Source: Botryosphaeria dothidea (taxonomy: Eukaryota > Ascomycota > Dothideomycetes > Botryosphaeriales > Botryosphaeriaceae). From it: 64,000 bases of DNA. Both the position numbers and the translations under genes were made by a program. The notes beneath the pieces are model-generated. The model did no database searches. It saw only the letters and a list, made by a program, of their open reading frames with translations, and was not told the origin of the DNA. The stretch spans positions 744,001 through 808,000 of the forward strand of contig WWBZ02000001.1 in NCBI GenBank assembly GCA_011503125.2, given 5' to 3'. Positions within the stretch are counted from its first letter, which is position 1; the number at the start of each line of letters is the position of its first letter. Below, in pieces: positions 5,651 through 32,476 of the stretch.

Positions 5651-6808
5651 ATGTCCGCACAGGCACAGGATCTCAGGAAGACCTCGGACAGCGAGTCGGC
5701 CACCCCCGCGGCCTCGACCGTTGCCCAGCAGAGCGACAATGTCGCCCACGCCCTCGCCGGAGCGGGTGGAGGCCTGCTCTCCATGGCCTTGACGTAGGCT
5801 CCCTTGACAGCGACCCCGCTGCCAAAGTCGCGCTGATAGAAGCCAGCTACCCGCTCATTACTCTCTCAACCCGCGCCCAGGTTGAGTCCAAGCGGGCACA
5901 ATCATCAACTCTCGATGCCACCAAGCGCATCATCCAGCGCGAGGGCATCAGCGGCCTCTACGCCGGCCTCGAGTCCGCGTTGTTCGGCATCAGCGTCACC
6001 AACTTCGTCTACTACTACTGTGAGTCGCAAGTGAAAGACCCAAGCAGGGTGTACTCAAGGCTGACGGAGGGGCTGCGATACTCCAGGGTACGAATGGACC
6101 CGCGCCGGGTTCGAGAAGGGGGCCATCAAGGCTGGCCGACCCTCCAAGAAACTCACCACCGTCGAGTCGATGATCGCGGGCGCCCTCGCCGGCAGCGCCA
6201 CCGTTCTCATCACCAACCCCATCTGGGTCGTGAACACCCGCATGACGGCCCGCAAGTCCGAGTCCAACGAACAACTGCCCGGTAGCAAGCCCGCCAAAGC
6301 CCCGTCGACCATCGGCACCCTCCTCTCTATCATCAAGGACGAGGGCTTCATGCGCCTCTTCGCTGGCGTTGTTCCAGCCCTCGTCCTCGTTATCAACCCT
6401 ATCCTCCAATATACGTTTTTCGAGCAGTTGAAGAACGTGTTGGAGAAGAGGCGGCGCGTCACCCCGACGGACTCGTTCTACCTTGGTGCTCTGGGCAAGC
6501 TGCTGGCCACATCGATCACATACCCCTACATTACGGTGAAGAGCCGCATGCACGTCGCCGGTAAGGATGGTCCCAAAGAGGACATGATGACGAGCTTCCG
6601 CCGCATTCTTAAGGAGGAGGGGTGGGCAGGTCTCTATGGAGGTAAGTCAGCCTTGTCAAGTAGAGACTGAGTGTGGGATACTGACGGAATGGTAGGCATC
6701 GGCCCCAAGGTCACCCAGAGCGTGATCACGGCTGCATTCCTGTTCGCCTTCAAGGATGCTCTCTACGACATGACGGTCAAGGCCAGGAGGGCGGCGGTCA
6801 AGAAATAA
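5651..6808 (+). CDS. ant1: Peroxisomal adenine nucleotide carrier (PMP47/Ant1 type)
   Basis: Four exons: 5651-5793, 5847-6019, 6087-6641 and 6696-6808, giving 327 residues, the usual size for mitochondrial-carrier-family proteins. All three introns are short GT-AG introns and keep frame. The three tandem repeats carry TYPLITLSTRAQ, TNPIWVVNTRM and TYPYITVKSRM in the positions of the carrier signature, and the opening GAGGGLLSMALTYPL is characteristic of the fungal PMP47/Ant1 group. These proteins exchange ATP for AMP across the peroxisomal membrane to supply acyl-CoA activation for beta-oxidation. The bases between exons 1 and 2, and between 2 and 3, contain stops and no carrier sequence, which supports the splice choices. 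Six membrane helices are expected. Confident about family; the substrate is assigned from the subgroup motif. Confidence 0.88.
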
Positions 6809-7581
6809 ATGGCGCCCTCTGCGGCACAGAGTACCTATGCGGCCCTTGCAGGAGCAGTGGGTTGAAGGCGTCATATCACACCACAGAACGGATACCCTGC
6901 AGGTGTTCGGCTACAAAATCCATATTGGTGGGTGTTAATTTGCTCAACGTCAAGAAGATTCCCAGGCACGATGTTCATATGTGTAAGAATTCTGGCCGAA
7001 AGATGGAAGAGGTAGAGGCTCTGCGAGCATTTTCTTGCACCCCTCCGATGAAAGGTCCAATGAGAAGAGTTATCTCACGTACATAGTCCACGTGCACTTC
7101 GTGCTTTATGCTTGATTCTTTTGCTTCTTTCCGAGGCCTTTTAGCTCTTGCATGTGTTAAGCGTTCTCATTTCCATTTTTGTGCCTCTTGACCGCAAGGA
7201 TGCAGACTGGTTCTCCGTCAAGCCCCGCCATCTGTCTCACAATCAAGCTTCGACGGGCATTAAAGATAAGGTCATGTGTCCCTTCCATCATCTTCACATG
7301 CATGCAACATAAATCCTTCGAATTGCCTGGTTGTCCACTCGGCCCGGGCCCGTACCGGTAAGGCTAACAAGCGACAAGCACACAGCCTAGATTCGCCGCA
7401 TTCGGCATGACGAAAAGCTGAGCAAATCCGAGGCCGGAGAACCGGAGAGCCGCAGGACACTACAGACACGCAATTCAAGGGAGAAATGGAACGATTGATG
7501 ACGTTGAATCCGGTGGAGATTCACTGGCCACGTACATAGTGAAAATTGGTAAAAATAACTTCCCATCAAGTCATTCAAGAA
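6809..7581. other. Intergenic region
   Basis: 3' flank of the carrier gene up to the initiator tRNA gene. It is comparatively AT-rich with no recognisable coding sequence; it presumably holds the carrier polyadenylation signals. Confidence 0.5.
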
Positions 7582-7588
7582 AGCTGCG

Positions 7589-7600
7589 TGGCGCAGCGGA
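7589..7600 (+). promoter_or_regulatory. RNA polymerase III A box of tRNA-iMet
   Basis: TGGCGCAGCGGA fits the internal A-box consensus and is wholly upstream of the insert, so the insert increases A-to-B spacing without breaking either element. Confidence 0.7.
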
Positions 7601-7604
7601 AGCG

Positions 7605-7661
7605 GTAAGCATCTCTCACTGGAAAAGTTCCTCCGAACAAATTTACTAACAACCTTCACAG
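7605..7661 (+). other. Intron-like insert in tRNA-iMet (GT-TACTAAC-AG)
   Basis: 57 nt starting GTAAGC at 7605 and ending CACAG at 7661, with an exact TACTAAC at 7644-7650 (candidate branch A at 7649, 12 nt before the 3' end). Length, 5' site, branch site and 3' site are those of the spliceosomal introns in neighbouring protein genes. Its position (24/25, in the 3' strand of the D stem) is not the canonical 37/38 site used by the tRNA endonuclease, and I see no bulge-helix-bulge fold at its ends. Removal regenerates all four stems exactly. Confidence 0.8.
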
Positions 7662-7688
7662 CGCCGGGCTCATAACCCGGAGGACAAT

Positions 7689-7699
7689 GGATCGAAACC
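7689..7699 (+). promoter_or_regulatory. RNA polymerase III B box of tRNA-iMet
   Basis: GGATCGAAACC, the initiator-type variant of the B-box consensus, spanning the T arm in the second exon. Confidence 0.7.
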
Positions 7700-7723
7700 A
7701 TTCGCAGCTAGAAATCTGCTTTC

Positions 7724-7729
7724 TTTTTT
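7724..7729 (+). terminator. Pol III T-run terminator after tRNA-iMet
   Basis: Six consecutive T residues, preceded by a further TTTC, 14 nt past the tRNA 3' end; typical Pol III terminator. The insert itself contains no run of four or more T. Confidence 0.75.
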
Positions 7730-8799
7730 GCACTTTTTCTGCTTCTCGAATTTTGAGTGGTCAAACGCCATTGTGCGTGTCTCCACCAGTTTCATTTTGG
7801 TCCGTTAAGGCCCACATCGGGAAAGAAATGACTCACTCTCCTTCTCCCAGCACCCACTTCGTGACCTTAACCCTTTTCTGACTGGTTGCCCTGCTATCCG
7901 GGCCAATTCTGGGTAACATCTCATTGTTAGAATTGGAGTTCGAAACCCATGAATCGCAACATTGCAGTAATGTAATAAAGTATCTTCGCTGCTCCAGACG
8001 ATGTCGGTGCCCATCGAATTTGCGACTGCAATATGCCCGCTGGGAATGGAGAATCAGTGCACAACAATCATATTTGTGCAACAAAGTACACGAGAAAAAA
8101 AAAGAGGAAGTAGCTTGACGGTCACCGTGAACATATTTAGTCAAGATCCTGCAGAACAAAACGCCGCAGGCTTAGCCGTTCCTTCATTCAAGGCGGGTCA
8201 ATCCACTTTGACGTCAAACACAAAGGATAGGAGGCAGAAGATGAAAAAAAATTCGATAGTAGTATAAACCCGTATCAAATGCACCACAGCCCCGTTACCA
8301 TCCCTCCATTGCCCCTGAAGACCGAACGAGAGGGAATATCACCTCGCAAGCTATGCAGATCGAATGACTACTAAAAACTGAAACCAGGCAAAAAAAAAAA
8401 TTCGAAAAAAAAACCGCCTCAAGCAATCGCAGAACTGCTGCTACCGCCTGCCGCCATCGCCATAATTTTTGTTATACTACAAGAAGAAAAGGGCGTGCAA
8501 ACGTGAGGATGAACCCAAGAAAGCAAGAGGAAGGGGGAGACGCCCAAAGAAACTTTACAACCCTCGAACCTGAACGTCAAAAAAGGAAGCACTAGTTTTT
8601 TTTTGTGATGAAAGCCGGGACGCCATATCGCTGTGGAGAAGCGGCACCAAAAGCCACTGACGTTGTCAACGGTCGTCAAAGTAGACATAGGAGAAAAGGA
8701 CCCTGACCCAAAGGCCGAGGTTCTCAATGGCTTAAATCTAGGACGACCGGGTCGCAAGAGTATGCACGCAGATATTGAGCCGCAGATGCAGCTAGCAGC
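7730..8799. other. Intergenic region
   Basis: 3' flank of the seb1-like gene. AT-rich with several poly(A)/poly(T) tracts (for example around 8100, 8390 and 8590) and a palindromic TTGACGTCAA near 8207. Short open frames on both strands show no domains; I see no gene. Confidence 0.5.
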
Positions 8800-11343
8800 T
8801 CACATACCGGGGAGCTGGAAGCCGAAGCCCGGAACAGCCGGGGGAACGCCGATCGTGTGAGGCTCTGGCCGAGGTTCCCCTCCCTGGGGTCCACCGGGGC
8901 GAGAATCGGGCTTGCGGAAGCGCGGCGCGTTCGGATCAAACCCACCCCCATGGTGACCTCCACCGTGGCGTCGACCATGGAAGTGACCGTGCTTGCCTGC
9001 AGGTTCTGGGCCGACGCGGCGACTCATGGCTATGTGACCGTTTGTGTCAATCATTCGTCATTTTTGGAATTCAATGGCGGTAGAACGTACCTTTAGATGA
9101 AACTCCAGTTCCAATCTCGATATCTGGTTCCTCGATCACAAGACCAGTCTCAAGCTGACGTCCACCTGTACCGCCGAACTCGGAGTTGACAACCCACTTA
9201 CGATCGGCCTCAGTCAGGCGATCGATGGGAATAACACTGATACCCGTGCTATAGTCGCTGCATTCGCGGGGTCCAAAGCCTACACCCCAGCGAGTCTTGG
9301 AAACGTCAGCATAGAATATCTGCAGCTCGCCCCGTCTTTGAACTCACCTGACGAGCCTTGTTGAGAACCTGTGGATTCTTTTCCTTCTCCATACCAAGTT
9401 TAGCTTGAACGGAATCAGTACGAGTAGCCATCTTTACAAAGGCATGATGCTTTTCCGGGTTGACAATGCAAGTCTGGACCTCTCCAAAGCGCTTGAAAAT
9501 CTCCCGAAGCTCCTGCTCCGTAGCTCTACAATCATAGTCAGGAATCATCATATCTTTATAACTCAGTGCGGCCAGAGCAACTTACGAGACTCCTCCTACG
9601 AACAAAGTGCGGCTGAGCACCTTAATGTTGCCTCTCGGCAGTGAGTTGTCAAACTGAATGTACTTGGGTTTCTGGTTAGAGCTCTTTTGCTGCTGTTGCT
9701 GCTGCTGCTGTTGCTGCTGTTGTTGCTGAACGGCGGGCGAGTTGCGATGCTTGTCACGATTTCTCCTATTCTTCCTACCGCCGCGACGGCTACCACCGTG
9801 CTCGCTAGTAGATTGCTGGCCATTTGAACTATTGGGTGCACCAGGAGGGCCGTCAGGCGCCCCAGGACCAGTGTAAGGGTCGTAAACACCATAGGTTGGG
9901 CTCTCACGACGATTGACTGGAGGCGAACGCCGACGCTTCGAGTCAGGTGAGCGACTACGATCACGGTTCCGATCGAAGTCGCGAGGATCATCTCTACTCC
10001 TATAATCCTGCGCAGTCTGCGGCTGACCATTTGGAGCAGCTTGGGCGTGTCCGTTTTGGGCCTGAGGAGCCTGAGCGGCAGCCGGTACGCCTGAGATGCC
10101 CTGCACACCACCACCGCTCATAGCGGCAATGACCTGAGCTATCTGCTCCGGATTCCAGCCTTGCTGAACCAACGAGCCTATGAATTGCATGAAGGCCTCA
10201 TTGCCGCCAGGCATATTCTGAAATGCTTGGGGCATGAGGGGGTTCGCCGGAGCAGGAGCTGCAGGAGCGGCGGGAGCGGCGGGAGCTGCGGGAGCGGCAG
10301 GCGCAACAGGCATAGCAGGCGGCATAGTTGTAGTATTACCTTGTCCGTTGGGCTGAGCAGCATACGGAGGTATCGATGGAGCAGTCATAGCAGGGCCTAC
10401 GTTCTGTTGCTGCGGTTGAGTAGGGTTGGCATATTGTGCGCCGTTTTGATACTGAATATTCTGCATCGACGTGGCAGATTGAGCTTGCTTTCCTACGTTG
10501 GCAAGACTTGCGAGCAATGAGACTGTGCCAGAAGGTGCTGCTGAAGATGCTGGGGCCATCTGCGGCTGAGCCGTCGTGTCAGATGTGGCACCCGTTGGAG
10601 TTCCGGTCGCCGGGGCGGCGGCTGCAGATACGAAGACATCAGACCCTTGTGCTGTCTCATGGACGGGTTCTTGCAAGCCGGGGAGTGTCTTACGAGCTCC
10701 TAAGCGCTGCTTGAAGTCGGCAAGCAGCTGCTGGGGAAACGTGTTGCCACGCTCCCAAATTTCGATCATCTTGCTAATCCTCTCCTAGAATGATAGTACT
10801 TGTAAGTAAGCCGAAACAATTGTGGTTGATCGCATCATGCGGTCTTGTAAAAGCGGGAACAGTTCTAAGGAAGATCAAGTCTTCGCGCAACAGTTCAACA
10901 GTGCGTACCTTCTGGTCCTCTGGGGCACTCTGGATAAGATCGTGCATCATCGGAGGAAGCACCTGCGTCGCAATGGCAACTCCAATAGAGTTGGGGGCCT
11001 TGGATACATCAGAACCTGCAGACGCTGCATCTTCCTTGTTCAGTCGGGCCTTGTCCGCCCACTGCCGCACGACGGCATCAAGCACATAGAGTACGCCAAG
11101 CTTGTGAGTGTTGGGAGAGGTGTTGAAGCGATCGCGGATCGTCTGGAGGATTTGAGGGCATTGCTACATCGGCCAGAGGTTAGTGGGGTCCGCGTCTCTC
11201 GTGTCTAGGGAGCAGTCTCGGCCTACATTTGCATTCGCGATGCAGAGGTTGGTGATGGCGGTGATCTTCGATTTGTTGGCTCCTGGAGGCTTCAGCGCAG
11301 ACAGCGACAGCAGCAACGTGTTCAGCTCCTCGATGGCCGACAT
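8800..11343 (-). CDS. seb1: Seb1/Nrd1-type RNA-binding transcription termination factor
   Basis: Six exons: 11343-11227, 11163-10909, 10784-9586, 9525-9348, 9295-9091 and 9029-8800, about 727 residues. The N-terminal about 150 residues form a CTD-interaction domain ending in the helix KMIEIWERGNTFP, typical of Nrd1/Seb1 proteins that bind the RNA polymerase II tail. The middle has an Ala/Pro-rich stretch, an Arg/Asp/Ser-rich stretch and a glutamine tract (codons around 9690-9735). Next comes a split RRM: TLFVGGVSATEQELREIF and HHAFVKM, followed by TRWGVGFGPRECSDY and EADRKWV, hallmarks of the Seb1 RNA-binding module. The role is co-transcriptional 3'-end formation and termination in the nucleus, by family. 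The intron between exons 4 and 5 is taken as 52 nt with branch CTGAC and acceptor CCAAG. The extreme C-terminus is uncertain because GTATGT overlaps the stop. Confidence 0.88.
9690..9735 (-). repeat. CAG/CAA repeat encoding polyglutamine
   Basis: Mixed CAG/CAA codons on the minus strand encode about 14 consecutive glutamines within the disordered part of the Seb1-like protein, ahead of its RRM. Expect length variation among strains. Confidence 0.85.
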
Positions 11344-17484: not shown

Positions 17485-17587
17485 CTCCCCCGGACAGGCT
17501 TGAACTGTCAACCTCCTGATTGCAACGAGACCCTCCAACGGAATCCCCTTAACAGTCAGACGCGCTAGCCAATTGCGCCACGGAGGA
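17485..17587 (-). tRNA. tRNA-Asn (GTT) with canonical 29-nt intron
   Basis: On the minus strand the acceptor arms TCCTCCG/CGGGGGA pair over seven positions (one T-G), followed by TG, D stem GCGC/GCGC with loop AATTGGCTA, anticodon stem TCTGA/TCAGG, anticodon loop with GTT at 34-36, variable AGGTT, and T stem GACAG/CTGTC with loop TTCAAGC; discriminator G. A 29-nt intron (17521-17549) lies after position 37, the standard site for tRNA splicing endonuclease. It is a useful contrast with the initiator tRNA in this window, whose insert is in the D arm. Confidence 0.95.
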
Positions 17588-29618: not shown

Positions 29619-32476
29619 ATGTCTTCGTCGCGCCCGAACTCCAAATACTACTCCAGTCATGAGCGCGTCCCCAGTTCCTCGCGCCCTCGCGTCGCCTCCA
29701 CCGCGACCCGCGACCAAGAGTCGCATTCCAACTCACACTCACATTCGAGGTCACACTCCACAAGCAAGGCCACCGAACGCCGCACCGATCGCAACAATGT
29801 CCTCACCCGCGAGACGATTACAGTGAAGCGCTCCCCACTCAAGACCGACAGTCGTTCCAACTCTCGGAGGAGCAGGGATGGCCAGAAAGGGCAGAGTGCT
29901 CCGGCCACTCCAACTACTGCTGAACCTAAGAAGGAGGAGCCACGAGGTATGCTACTCAATTCGTTCTCCTGGTTTTTCTGACCCATCGTAGAGCCATGGA
30001 AGCCTCAAGCTTCACTCGTTCCGCATACCACCGCTCCGCTCGCCTCCCGAGTCTCTACCCCCCAGCGTGCCTCATTAGCTCCCGTCGACCTGCAACCCCA
30101 ACCATTGGCCCAACTATCCGTTGAGGCTCAAGAGGCTGCCATTATCGAAGATCTGCTCTTTGTATTCATGGGATTCGAGGGCCAATACATCAGATTCGCA
30201 ACATCCTACAATCCCTCCGAGGAGAAAAGCCGTTTGATGGGCCCAACATTCAACATAGCTTCCGGCCTGGATCCTAGTTTGCGAGACCTTACAACGTCCA
30301 TGCTCAAAATGGCGACACATTACTCTGCGCTTGAGGCTTTCATTGAGGTTCAGAGCAGGGACGAGTACGGCGCAGTGAATCATGCCCTGTGCGCTGTGGT
30401 CCGGAAGTTACTCAAGGACTATCTCGTGCTCATGGCTCAGCTGGAACATCAGATGCTCACCAATCCCACATTTACCCTACATCTCCTGAACCTGCATACA
30501 AAACCTACGAGCCACATGCTCTACCAATTGTACACCATGGGCATTGAGGTTTTGAAGGCAAATGCTCTTCTGGACGATGAAAATGAAGATGATCTCGATG
30601 AGACCGAGAACTTGGAGGATATTTTGGAGTCTCTACGGGAAGGTGGCAACATAGCGCAAGGTTCGATAGGAAGCAAAAAGGTGTGCAAAGGTGGAAGTGT
30701 GCTGGGCTTAATATCAAAGCGGTTGGCCTCCATGTCCGGAGACCCTGCCGCAAGAACACTACTCACGACATTACTACGGGAGGCCAGTCGCCCGTACATG
30801 ACGATGCTCAACGAATGGCTCCACCATGGAGCAATCAAAGACCCTCATGCGGAGTTCTTGATCAAAGAACAGAAGAGCATCAAGCGTGAAAGATTGGACC
30901 AGGACTACACGGACGAGTATTGGGAAAAGCGTTACACAATTCGGGAGAATCTTGTTCCGCCGCAGTTGGAAGGGGTTAAGGACAAAGTCTTGCTCGCTGG
31001 GAAGTACCTCAACGTTGTGCGCGAGTGTGGCGGAGTCGACGTGAGCAAAAGAGTACAAGACGTTCCGACAACCTTTGACGATCCTAGATTCCTGGAGAAT
31101 GTCAACAGCGCCTACGCCTACGCAAACTCTTCCCTCCTTCATCTTCTTCTCACTACTCATGCACTCCCTGCACGTCTCCGGTCCCTCAAACACTACTTCT
31201 TCCTCGACCGATCCGACTTCTTTTCCTATTTCCTCGAACTCGGCACTTCTGAGCTCAAGAAGCCAGCCAAGATTGTCAATATTGGGAAGCTCCAGTCCCT
31301 TTTGGATATCGTCCTCCGCCAGCCTGGTAGTGTGGCGGCAGAGGACCCATACAAGGAGGATGTCAAGGTGCAAATGAACGAGATTGGTCTGACAAACTGG
31401 TTGATGAAGATCGTCACCGTGACTGGATTGGACCAAGATGCGGCGACGGGCAGCTTTTCAAACTACACACCGGCCGCTCAAAGCGCAACCATAACCGACG
31501 ACAAGGACATCATTGGATTCGACGCTTTAGTCCTCGACTACGCGATGCCGTTCCCTCTATCCCTCGTTGTTAGCCGAGTGACGTTGACACGGTACCAACT
31601 TCTTTTCCGCTACCTGCTCTCATTGCGCCATCTTGAGACATTGCTTGTCGGTAGCTGGGCGGATCACTCAAAAGTTCGCAGCTGGAAACACCGATCATCA
31701 AATCCTAAGATCGAAATGTGGAAGCGTAAGGCATGGACGTTACGTGCTCGCATGCTGGTCTTCGTACAGCAGCTTCTCTATTACAGTACGGCCGAAGTCA
31801 TAGAGCCCAACTGGCAGAGCATGATGTCCCGGCTGAATGCGGTGAGCAAAGGCGACGCGGCAGAGAATGCAGACATCATGCAGTCAACAGAGTCAATAGA
31901 TCCGGCCGCAACGGCAGCGGCTGAAGGGAGCGGCGATATCCCTGGTGGGAATGGACCTCAAGTCAAACGTACAGTGGACGAGTTGATGCAGGACCATGTG
32001 GATTTTCTGGCAACCTGCTTGAAGGAGTGCATGCTGACCAACGCGAAGCTCCTCAAGGTTAGTTTCCTCAAATAAAAAGGCTATCTTCACCCGCTAACAT
32101 CAACCTTTCGCAGATCAACTCCAAGATCCTCAACACCTGCACCATGTTCGCTAACTACACCGCCTCCCTCTCCCGTTACCTCATCTCCGCTGACGCCGAC
32201 CTCGCTACCACGTCTAATGCCTCCGCTTCCACAAGCACTGAAAAGGGCTCTTCCACCCGCTCCCTCGCCTTCGACCCGACCAAGCTTGGAAAGATGATCG
32301 ACCTGCTGCAGAAGTACGAGGACAACTTCACGAAACATCTCCGCATCCTGCTCGATACCTTGAACTACTACGCCGCCACGGAGACGGTGGTTTTCTTGAG
32401 CTTGTGTGCCAGGCTGAGTGCTGCTAGTGAGGGCCTTGGGTTTTCGGTCAATGTTAAGGGGGAGACAGTTTACTAA
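29619..32476 (+). CDS. Gamma-tubulin complex component GCP2 (Spc97/Alp4)
   Basis: Three exons: 29619-29946, 29992-32057 and 32114-32476, giving 918 residues. The first about 130 residues are Ser/Arg/His-rich and disordered. The rest matches the Spc97/Spc98 (GCP) fold: an N-terminal GRIP1 region beginning at EAAIIEDLLFVFMGFEGQYI, and a C-terminal GRIP2 region with HYFFLDRSDFFSYFLELG, FDALVLDYAMPFPLSLVV and YQLLFRYLLSLRHLE, the segment that contacts gamma-tubulin. FFLDRSDFF and LDYAMPFPLSLV point to GCP2 rather than GCP3. The protein nucleates microtubules at the spindle pole body. The second intron (GTTAGT donor) falls in the C-terminal helices and keeps frame. The 3' end converges on the HET-domain gene 283 bp away. 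Confidence 0.92.

Follow-up and report, generated by a model that had tools for sequence, protein, structure and literature searches.

Introns of the mRNA type are reportedly present in the U6 snRNA genes of S. pombe and other fungi, where they are said to have been gained multiple times, and nuclear tRNA introns are assigned to a distinct pathway that uses proteins only. Fungal U3 snoRNA, transcribed by Pol II, is likewise a structured small RNA whose genes can carry introns. According to passages of PMC5832005, whose abstract calls U3 Pol III-transcribed, these introns are of the GT-AG type with an RCTRAC branch site, and split and unsplit copies occur together in one genome. In Cyanidioschyzon and in nucleomorphs, also eukaryotic nuclear systems, passages of PMC4090602 and PMC3978253 describe ectopic tRNA introns (outside position 37/38) that include D-arm inserts. 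These introns carry the bulge-helix-bulge for the tRNA endonuclease.

We analysed a window of 64,000 nt (G000:C1:744001-808000) from an assembly of 51.7 Mb in 78 contigs, in which an initiator tRNA-Met gene at 7582-7710 is interrupted in the D arm by an insert bearing spliceosomal signals. Like the U6 introns of fungi, the insert is a putative short GT-AG intron that has a branch site and interrupts a small Pol III RNA; it differs in its host, a tRNA with its fold and internal promoter both interrupted, and in being carried by three paralogs. The tRNA host also distinguishes it from U3, as does the divergence of the paralogous introns, which are fully diverged here and, in the passages of PMC5832005 that treat them, almost always very similar in U3. 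Where the algal introns have a bulge-helix-bulge, the insert here has the signals of the spliceosome. Introns at the canonical 37/38 position are present in the same genome, for example in a tRNA-Asn(GTT) gene on the minus strand of the window (17485-17587), so that the ordinary tRNA-splicing route is found next door; they differ from the present inserts in position, length conservation and signals.

The new element is the tRNA host, mRNA-type introns in other Pol III small RNA genes being already known. Our searches of open-access literature returned no paper whose title, abstract opening or consulted passages described spliceosomal introns in tRNA genes, although an earlier account in a subscription journal or a preprint may exist, and the available passages of PMC8450103, PMC4090602, PMC3978253, PMC4033280 and PMC5832005 do not describe them.

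Gene structure at window positions 7582-7710

The elements of the gene and its predicted intron are as follows.

7582..7604, plus strand: initiator tRNA-Met exon 1, positions 1-24, from the joined cloverleaf; the 23 nt are identical in the C47 and C1-end copies
7605..7661, plus strand: 57-nt insert, putative GT-AG spliceosome-type intron (gene positions 24-80)
7605..7610, plus strand: predicted 5' splice site GTAAGC; GTAAG is common to all three inserts
7644..7650, plus strand: predicted branch site TACTAAC; the branch A, 7649, lies 12 nt before the 3' end, as it does in all three inserts
7657..7661, plus strand: predicted 3' splice site CACAG; the three inserts end in CAG, TAG and TAG
7662..7710, plus strand: initiator tRNA-Met exon 2, from the joined cloverleaf, with anticodon CAT at 7671-7673
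7589..7599, plus strand: Pol III A box, wholly within exon 1; match at gene position 8 to the consensus
7690..7698, plus strand: Pol III B box, wholly within exon 2; match at gene position 109 to the consensus
7724..7729, plus strand: T6 run 14 nt past the gene end, likely a terminator for Pol III

Joining 7582-7604 to 7662-7710 leaves a 72-nt tRNA in which 21 of 21 stem pairs are Watson-Crick, with A1-U72, a CAU anticodon, three G-C pairs in the anticodon stem and a T loop, AUCGAAA, that supplies A54 and A60. The joined exons show every mark by which a eukaryotic initiator tRNA-Met is known (cloverleaf, A1-U72, GC-rich anticodon stem, A54/A60 and CAU). An earlier note on this DNA had described the 72-nt product with all stems paired and these initiator marks, together with an insert that starts GTAAGC, carries TACTAAC 12 nt before its end, closes with CACAG and lies between positions 24 and 25; each of these readings was borne out. 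The insert interrupts the 3' strand of the D stem, away from the canonical 37/38 position.

The sequence holds an A box, a B box and a T-run terminator, the elements of a type 2 Pol III gene as judged against consensus sequences, and T runs of 4-12 lie at +9 to +14 in all four initiator genes of the genome. TTTT does not occur within the three split genes; this absence is uninformative on Pol III because 22 of 26 predicted mRNA introns also lack TTTT.

Given the joined form, ARAGORN returns tRNA-Met(cat); it finds no tRNA in the unspliced form, which scores 20.3 bits against the Rfam tRNA model in cmscan, where the cut-off is 29. The split gene was not reported in whole-window runs of ARAGORN or of cmscan at its cut-off. 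ARAGORN and the Rfam tRNA model thus overlook split genes of this kind, and initiator counts in fungal genomes may be underestimates. Of the ten GT..AG excisions of at least 30 nt from the window gene, one yields a tRNA, and this is the predicted removal of gene positions 24-80 (7605-7661). Corresponding excisions yield a tRNA in 2 of 15 cases for the C47 copy and 2 of 10 for the C1-end copy, with the predicted excision included in both; the two additional calls are a Met form with four extra bases and a mis-called Val. Excisions made without the GT..AG requirement do not discriminate, as 170 of 2870 give some tRNA-Met call.

Four initiator gene copies and their inserts

A genome search with the exon 2 pattern, allowing up to three mismatches, returned four places, and DNA similarity found the same four. 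Exact matches to the exon 1 pattern were again these four, with five further places at one mismatch, a number equalled by a backwards control; an initiator copy in which a second intron broke up both of the stretches searched would escape detection by either pattern. The copies, which are not duplicates arising from redundant contigs, are:

Copy A, window 7582-7710, plus strand: insert of 57 nt
Copy B, C47:1330625-1330752: insert of 56 nt
Copy C (the C1-end copy), C1:6143290-6143415, minus strand: insert of 54 nt
Copy D, G000:C29:539543-539614: no insert

In three of the four initiator genes the same point is thus occupied by an insert (57, 56 and 54 nt), and the search for CAT initiator genes without one brought up a single intact copy (C29) along with two more split copies. 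Pairwise comparison of the mature parts shows A, B and C to be identical at 72, 71 and 71 of 72 positions, and the single difference among them preserves a G-U pair. The initiator tRNA of Neurospora starts AGCUGCG, as do the split copies. Six bases separate copy D from A, and they make up three compensated pairs (C-G to A-U, G-C to A-U and A-U to G-C). The cloverleaf of D is perfect; a TATA-like stretch precedes the gene and a T12 run follows it. Copy D looks functional and apparently has been selected for function, because the six differences form three pairs changed on both sides.

The flanks of A and B are alike within 60 nt (upstream, 4 of 300 shuffles do as well; downstream, none of 300) and are not alike at 60-120 nt; A and B are therefore old duplicates that retained the terminator region, and what they have in common goes beyond the exons, a point that counts against the reading of exon conservation alone. 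The remaining flank comparisons are mostly near shuffle level, with the exception of B against C upstream at 60-120 nt (2 of 300). Searches of prokaryotic and viral contig collections for the initiator tRNA motifs gave no matches; none were expected there, and the result says nothing on fungi.

In all three inserts the 5' site is GTAAG, a GT in the GTRNG context; the branch sites read ACTAAC, ACTAAC and ACTGAC, each with its A 12 nt before the end; and the 3' sites are CAG, TAG and TAG. Section 3.2 of PMC5832005 gives the fungal intron consensus as an RCTRAC branch site, a YAG acceptor and 6-36 nt from branch to acceptor, with which all three inserts agree. Outside these signals the inserts bear little resemblance to one another. 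Their bodies, taken as the inserts minus the first 6 and last 18 nt, show pairwise identities of 0.53, 0.53 and 0.47 against shuffle means of 0.50, 0.49 and 0.49, values reached by 88, 71 and 193 of 300 shuffles. When 36 nt are aligned from the 5' end, the three inserts agree in GTAAG and at four scattered columns; aligned from the 3' end, they agree in ACT, AC, a CT column pair and AG.

A strict motif (GTAAG start, AG end, a CTRAC whose A lies 12 nt before the end, total length 54-57 nt) occurs three times on both strands of the 99,584 bp scanned (the window and L018-L021), and these are exactly the three initiator inserts. Loose motifs (GT, AG and CTRAC 8-25 nt from the end) number 16-22 per length in about 198,600 positions. 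Judged from sequence, the combination of retained splice signals, conserved exons and diverged bodies is the pattern that spliceosomal introns leave in genes that still function. Self-splicing of the group I or II type was considered and rejected on length (54-57 nt), as a matter of general knowledge.

Proposed pathway and competing explanations

We put the probability at about 0.85 that this is a functioning initiator tRNA-Met gene which Pol III transcribes and which contains a true U2-type spliceosomal intron. Pol III would transcribe it from the internal A box in exon 1 and B box in exon 2, the precursor would be spliced like a short fungal pre-mRNA intron by way of GTAAG, the ACTRAC branch site and YAG, and the joined exons would fold into a standard initiator tRNA; two paralogs would operate likewise, the fourth gene being intronless. 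That the insert is spliceosomal in nature, as the earlier note proposed, is highly probable, and the proposal gains strength from two paralogs that have diverged and from a U6 gene of this genome that bears a similar intron (below). From the sequence we infer Pol III transcription, removal by the spliceosome and use of the product in translation. The split genes are likely in use, making initiator tRNA from them probably needs the spliceosome, and a share of the initiator tRNA likely passes through it. The stronger suggestion, that the spliceosome may be required for a tRNA on which all translation relies, loses force through the intact, functional-looking gene at G000:C29:539543-539614: because this fourth gene is an intron-free source, such a dependence of all translation is not supported.

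The intact gene is also what speaks for the most serious competing explanation, in which the split copies are pseudogenes, all initiator tRNA coming from the C29 gene. With its perfect cloverleaf, upstream TATA-like stretch and downstream T12, that gene could make the split ones dispensable, and the earlier note had named an intact, expressed initiator gene elsewhere, together with an absence of junction reads, as the sign of a dead copy. An intact gene was found, but conservation of the exons argues against the copies being dead: they are identical at 71-72 of 72 positions while the intron bodies are at shuffle level, and every insert retains its splice signals at exact spacing, whereas decay would not spare exons and signals alone. 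Gene conversion confined to the exons could mimic this pattern, but it would have to halt at each intron border and skip the C29 gene. We regard dead copies as improbable.

Less probable again is removal of the insert by the tRNA endonuclease and ligase, as for the D-arm introns of Cyanidioschyzon and nucleomorphs. Passages of PMC4090602 establish that non-canonical introns, including those in the D arm, are known in those algae, and the window gene can form three of four central pairs in one of two equivalent registers. A bulge-helix-bulge has a central helix of 4 bp with a 3-nt bulge at each junction. Across the three genes, however, there are 1-3 of 4 central and 0-1 of 3 outer pairs, and no register is good in all three; this is a weak test, since among 14 canonical control introns, one duplicated gene being counted twice, at least three central pairs occur in 4 and at least two outer pairs in 9. 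The claim that the insert shows no bulge-helix-bulge is accordingly weakly supported, the score also failing many canonical introns. The conserved part of the inserts consists of the spliceosomal signals, and GT..AG ends are found in 3 of 3 inserts here against 0 of the 14 introns that ARAGORN called elsewhere in the genome. The least probable alternative, a split tRNA lying within a longer Pol II transcript whose intron falls in the tRNA by chance, has in its favour that spliceosomal splicing is ordinarily Pol II-coupled (general knowledge), but the three loci share no context beyond about 60 nt, each has Pol III boxes inside the gene and, no more than 14 nt past it, a T run, and the gap holding the window gene (6670-9582) contains no stop-to-stop ORF of at least 150 aa.

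Should the spliceosomal reading hold, tRNAs handled by the spliceosome would break the divide between the tRNA-splicing and spliceosomal pathways, the spliceosome would be able to handle a Pol III transcript that is compact and folds tightly, and the supply of initiator tRNA would be tied to splicing, a surprising link between splicing and translation. The presence of split and intact paralogs within one genome makes this directly testable. A bolder extension, for which we see the odds as even, is that most initiator tRNA is spliceosome-made (three of four genes), so that splicing capacity can set initiation capacity, and that the trait may be widespread and have gone unseen in relatives since tRNA finders skip such genes.

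U6, other small RNA genes and mRNA introns

The genome search placed U6 snRNA at three loci, on C3 (L029), C12 (L030) and C18 (L031). The C18 gene (L031 1501-1660, G000:C18:304005 onward, plus strand) is split by a 58-nt insert, GTAAGC...TACTAAC...GTGCAG, with its branch A 13 nt from the end; when joined, it can be matched by eye to the intronless copy, starting at about base 30 and continuing up to the T run. A B-box-like GTTCGATCC lies inside the insert. In the intronless U6 gene of L030, a B-box-like GTTCGACCC lies downstream of the T run. The U6 gene with its predicted intron provides a precedent from within this genome for Pol III genes that bear introns of the mRNA type.

Local mRNA introns provide a comparison for length. 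The earlier note had matched the 57-nt insert to them, and the match holds: a GCP2 intron at 32058-32113, with borders set by eye against protein P0001 and a tblastn gap, is 56 nt long and contains GCTAAC, and 26 predicted mRNA introns span 45-84 nt. These 26 came from the window and 13 loci, L029 and L030 repeating one of them, and were chosen by ORF joining with CTRAC required, which makes their branch-site content circular; a reversed-sequence control, covering the window and three loci, gave 1 after merging.

The C3 and C12 contigs are 99.5% identical over about 3.1 kb, so that the assembly seemingly holds redundant contigs and gene counts may be inflated; tRNA matches on C36 and C78 that recur at nearly constant offsets likewise suggest redundancy. 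The tRNA family search of the genome scored 63 of 1497 candidates, and 35 tRNA places, several of them duplicates, were read. Contig G000:C14 (145,619 bases), where many tRNA genes are packed closely together, resembles a large mitochondrial genome, and C26 repeats some of its tRNA matches at a constant offset. Two U3 snoRNA genes of 217-218 nt lie at G000:C29:2279735-2279952 and G000:C7:553466-553682. In the window itself, the GCP2 homologue (29982-32072) is 99% identical to that of Botryosphaeria dothidea and 92-97% identical to those of several other Botryosphaeriaceae, so that on the strength of this one protein the fungus is probably Botryosphaeria or a close neighbour, and a second ORF bears a HET domain, which is typical of filamentous ascomycetes.
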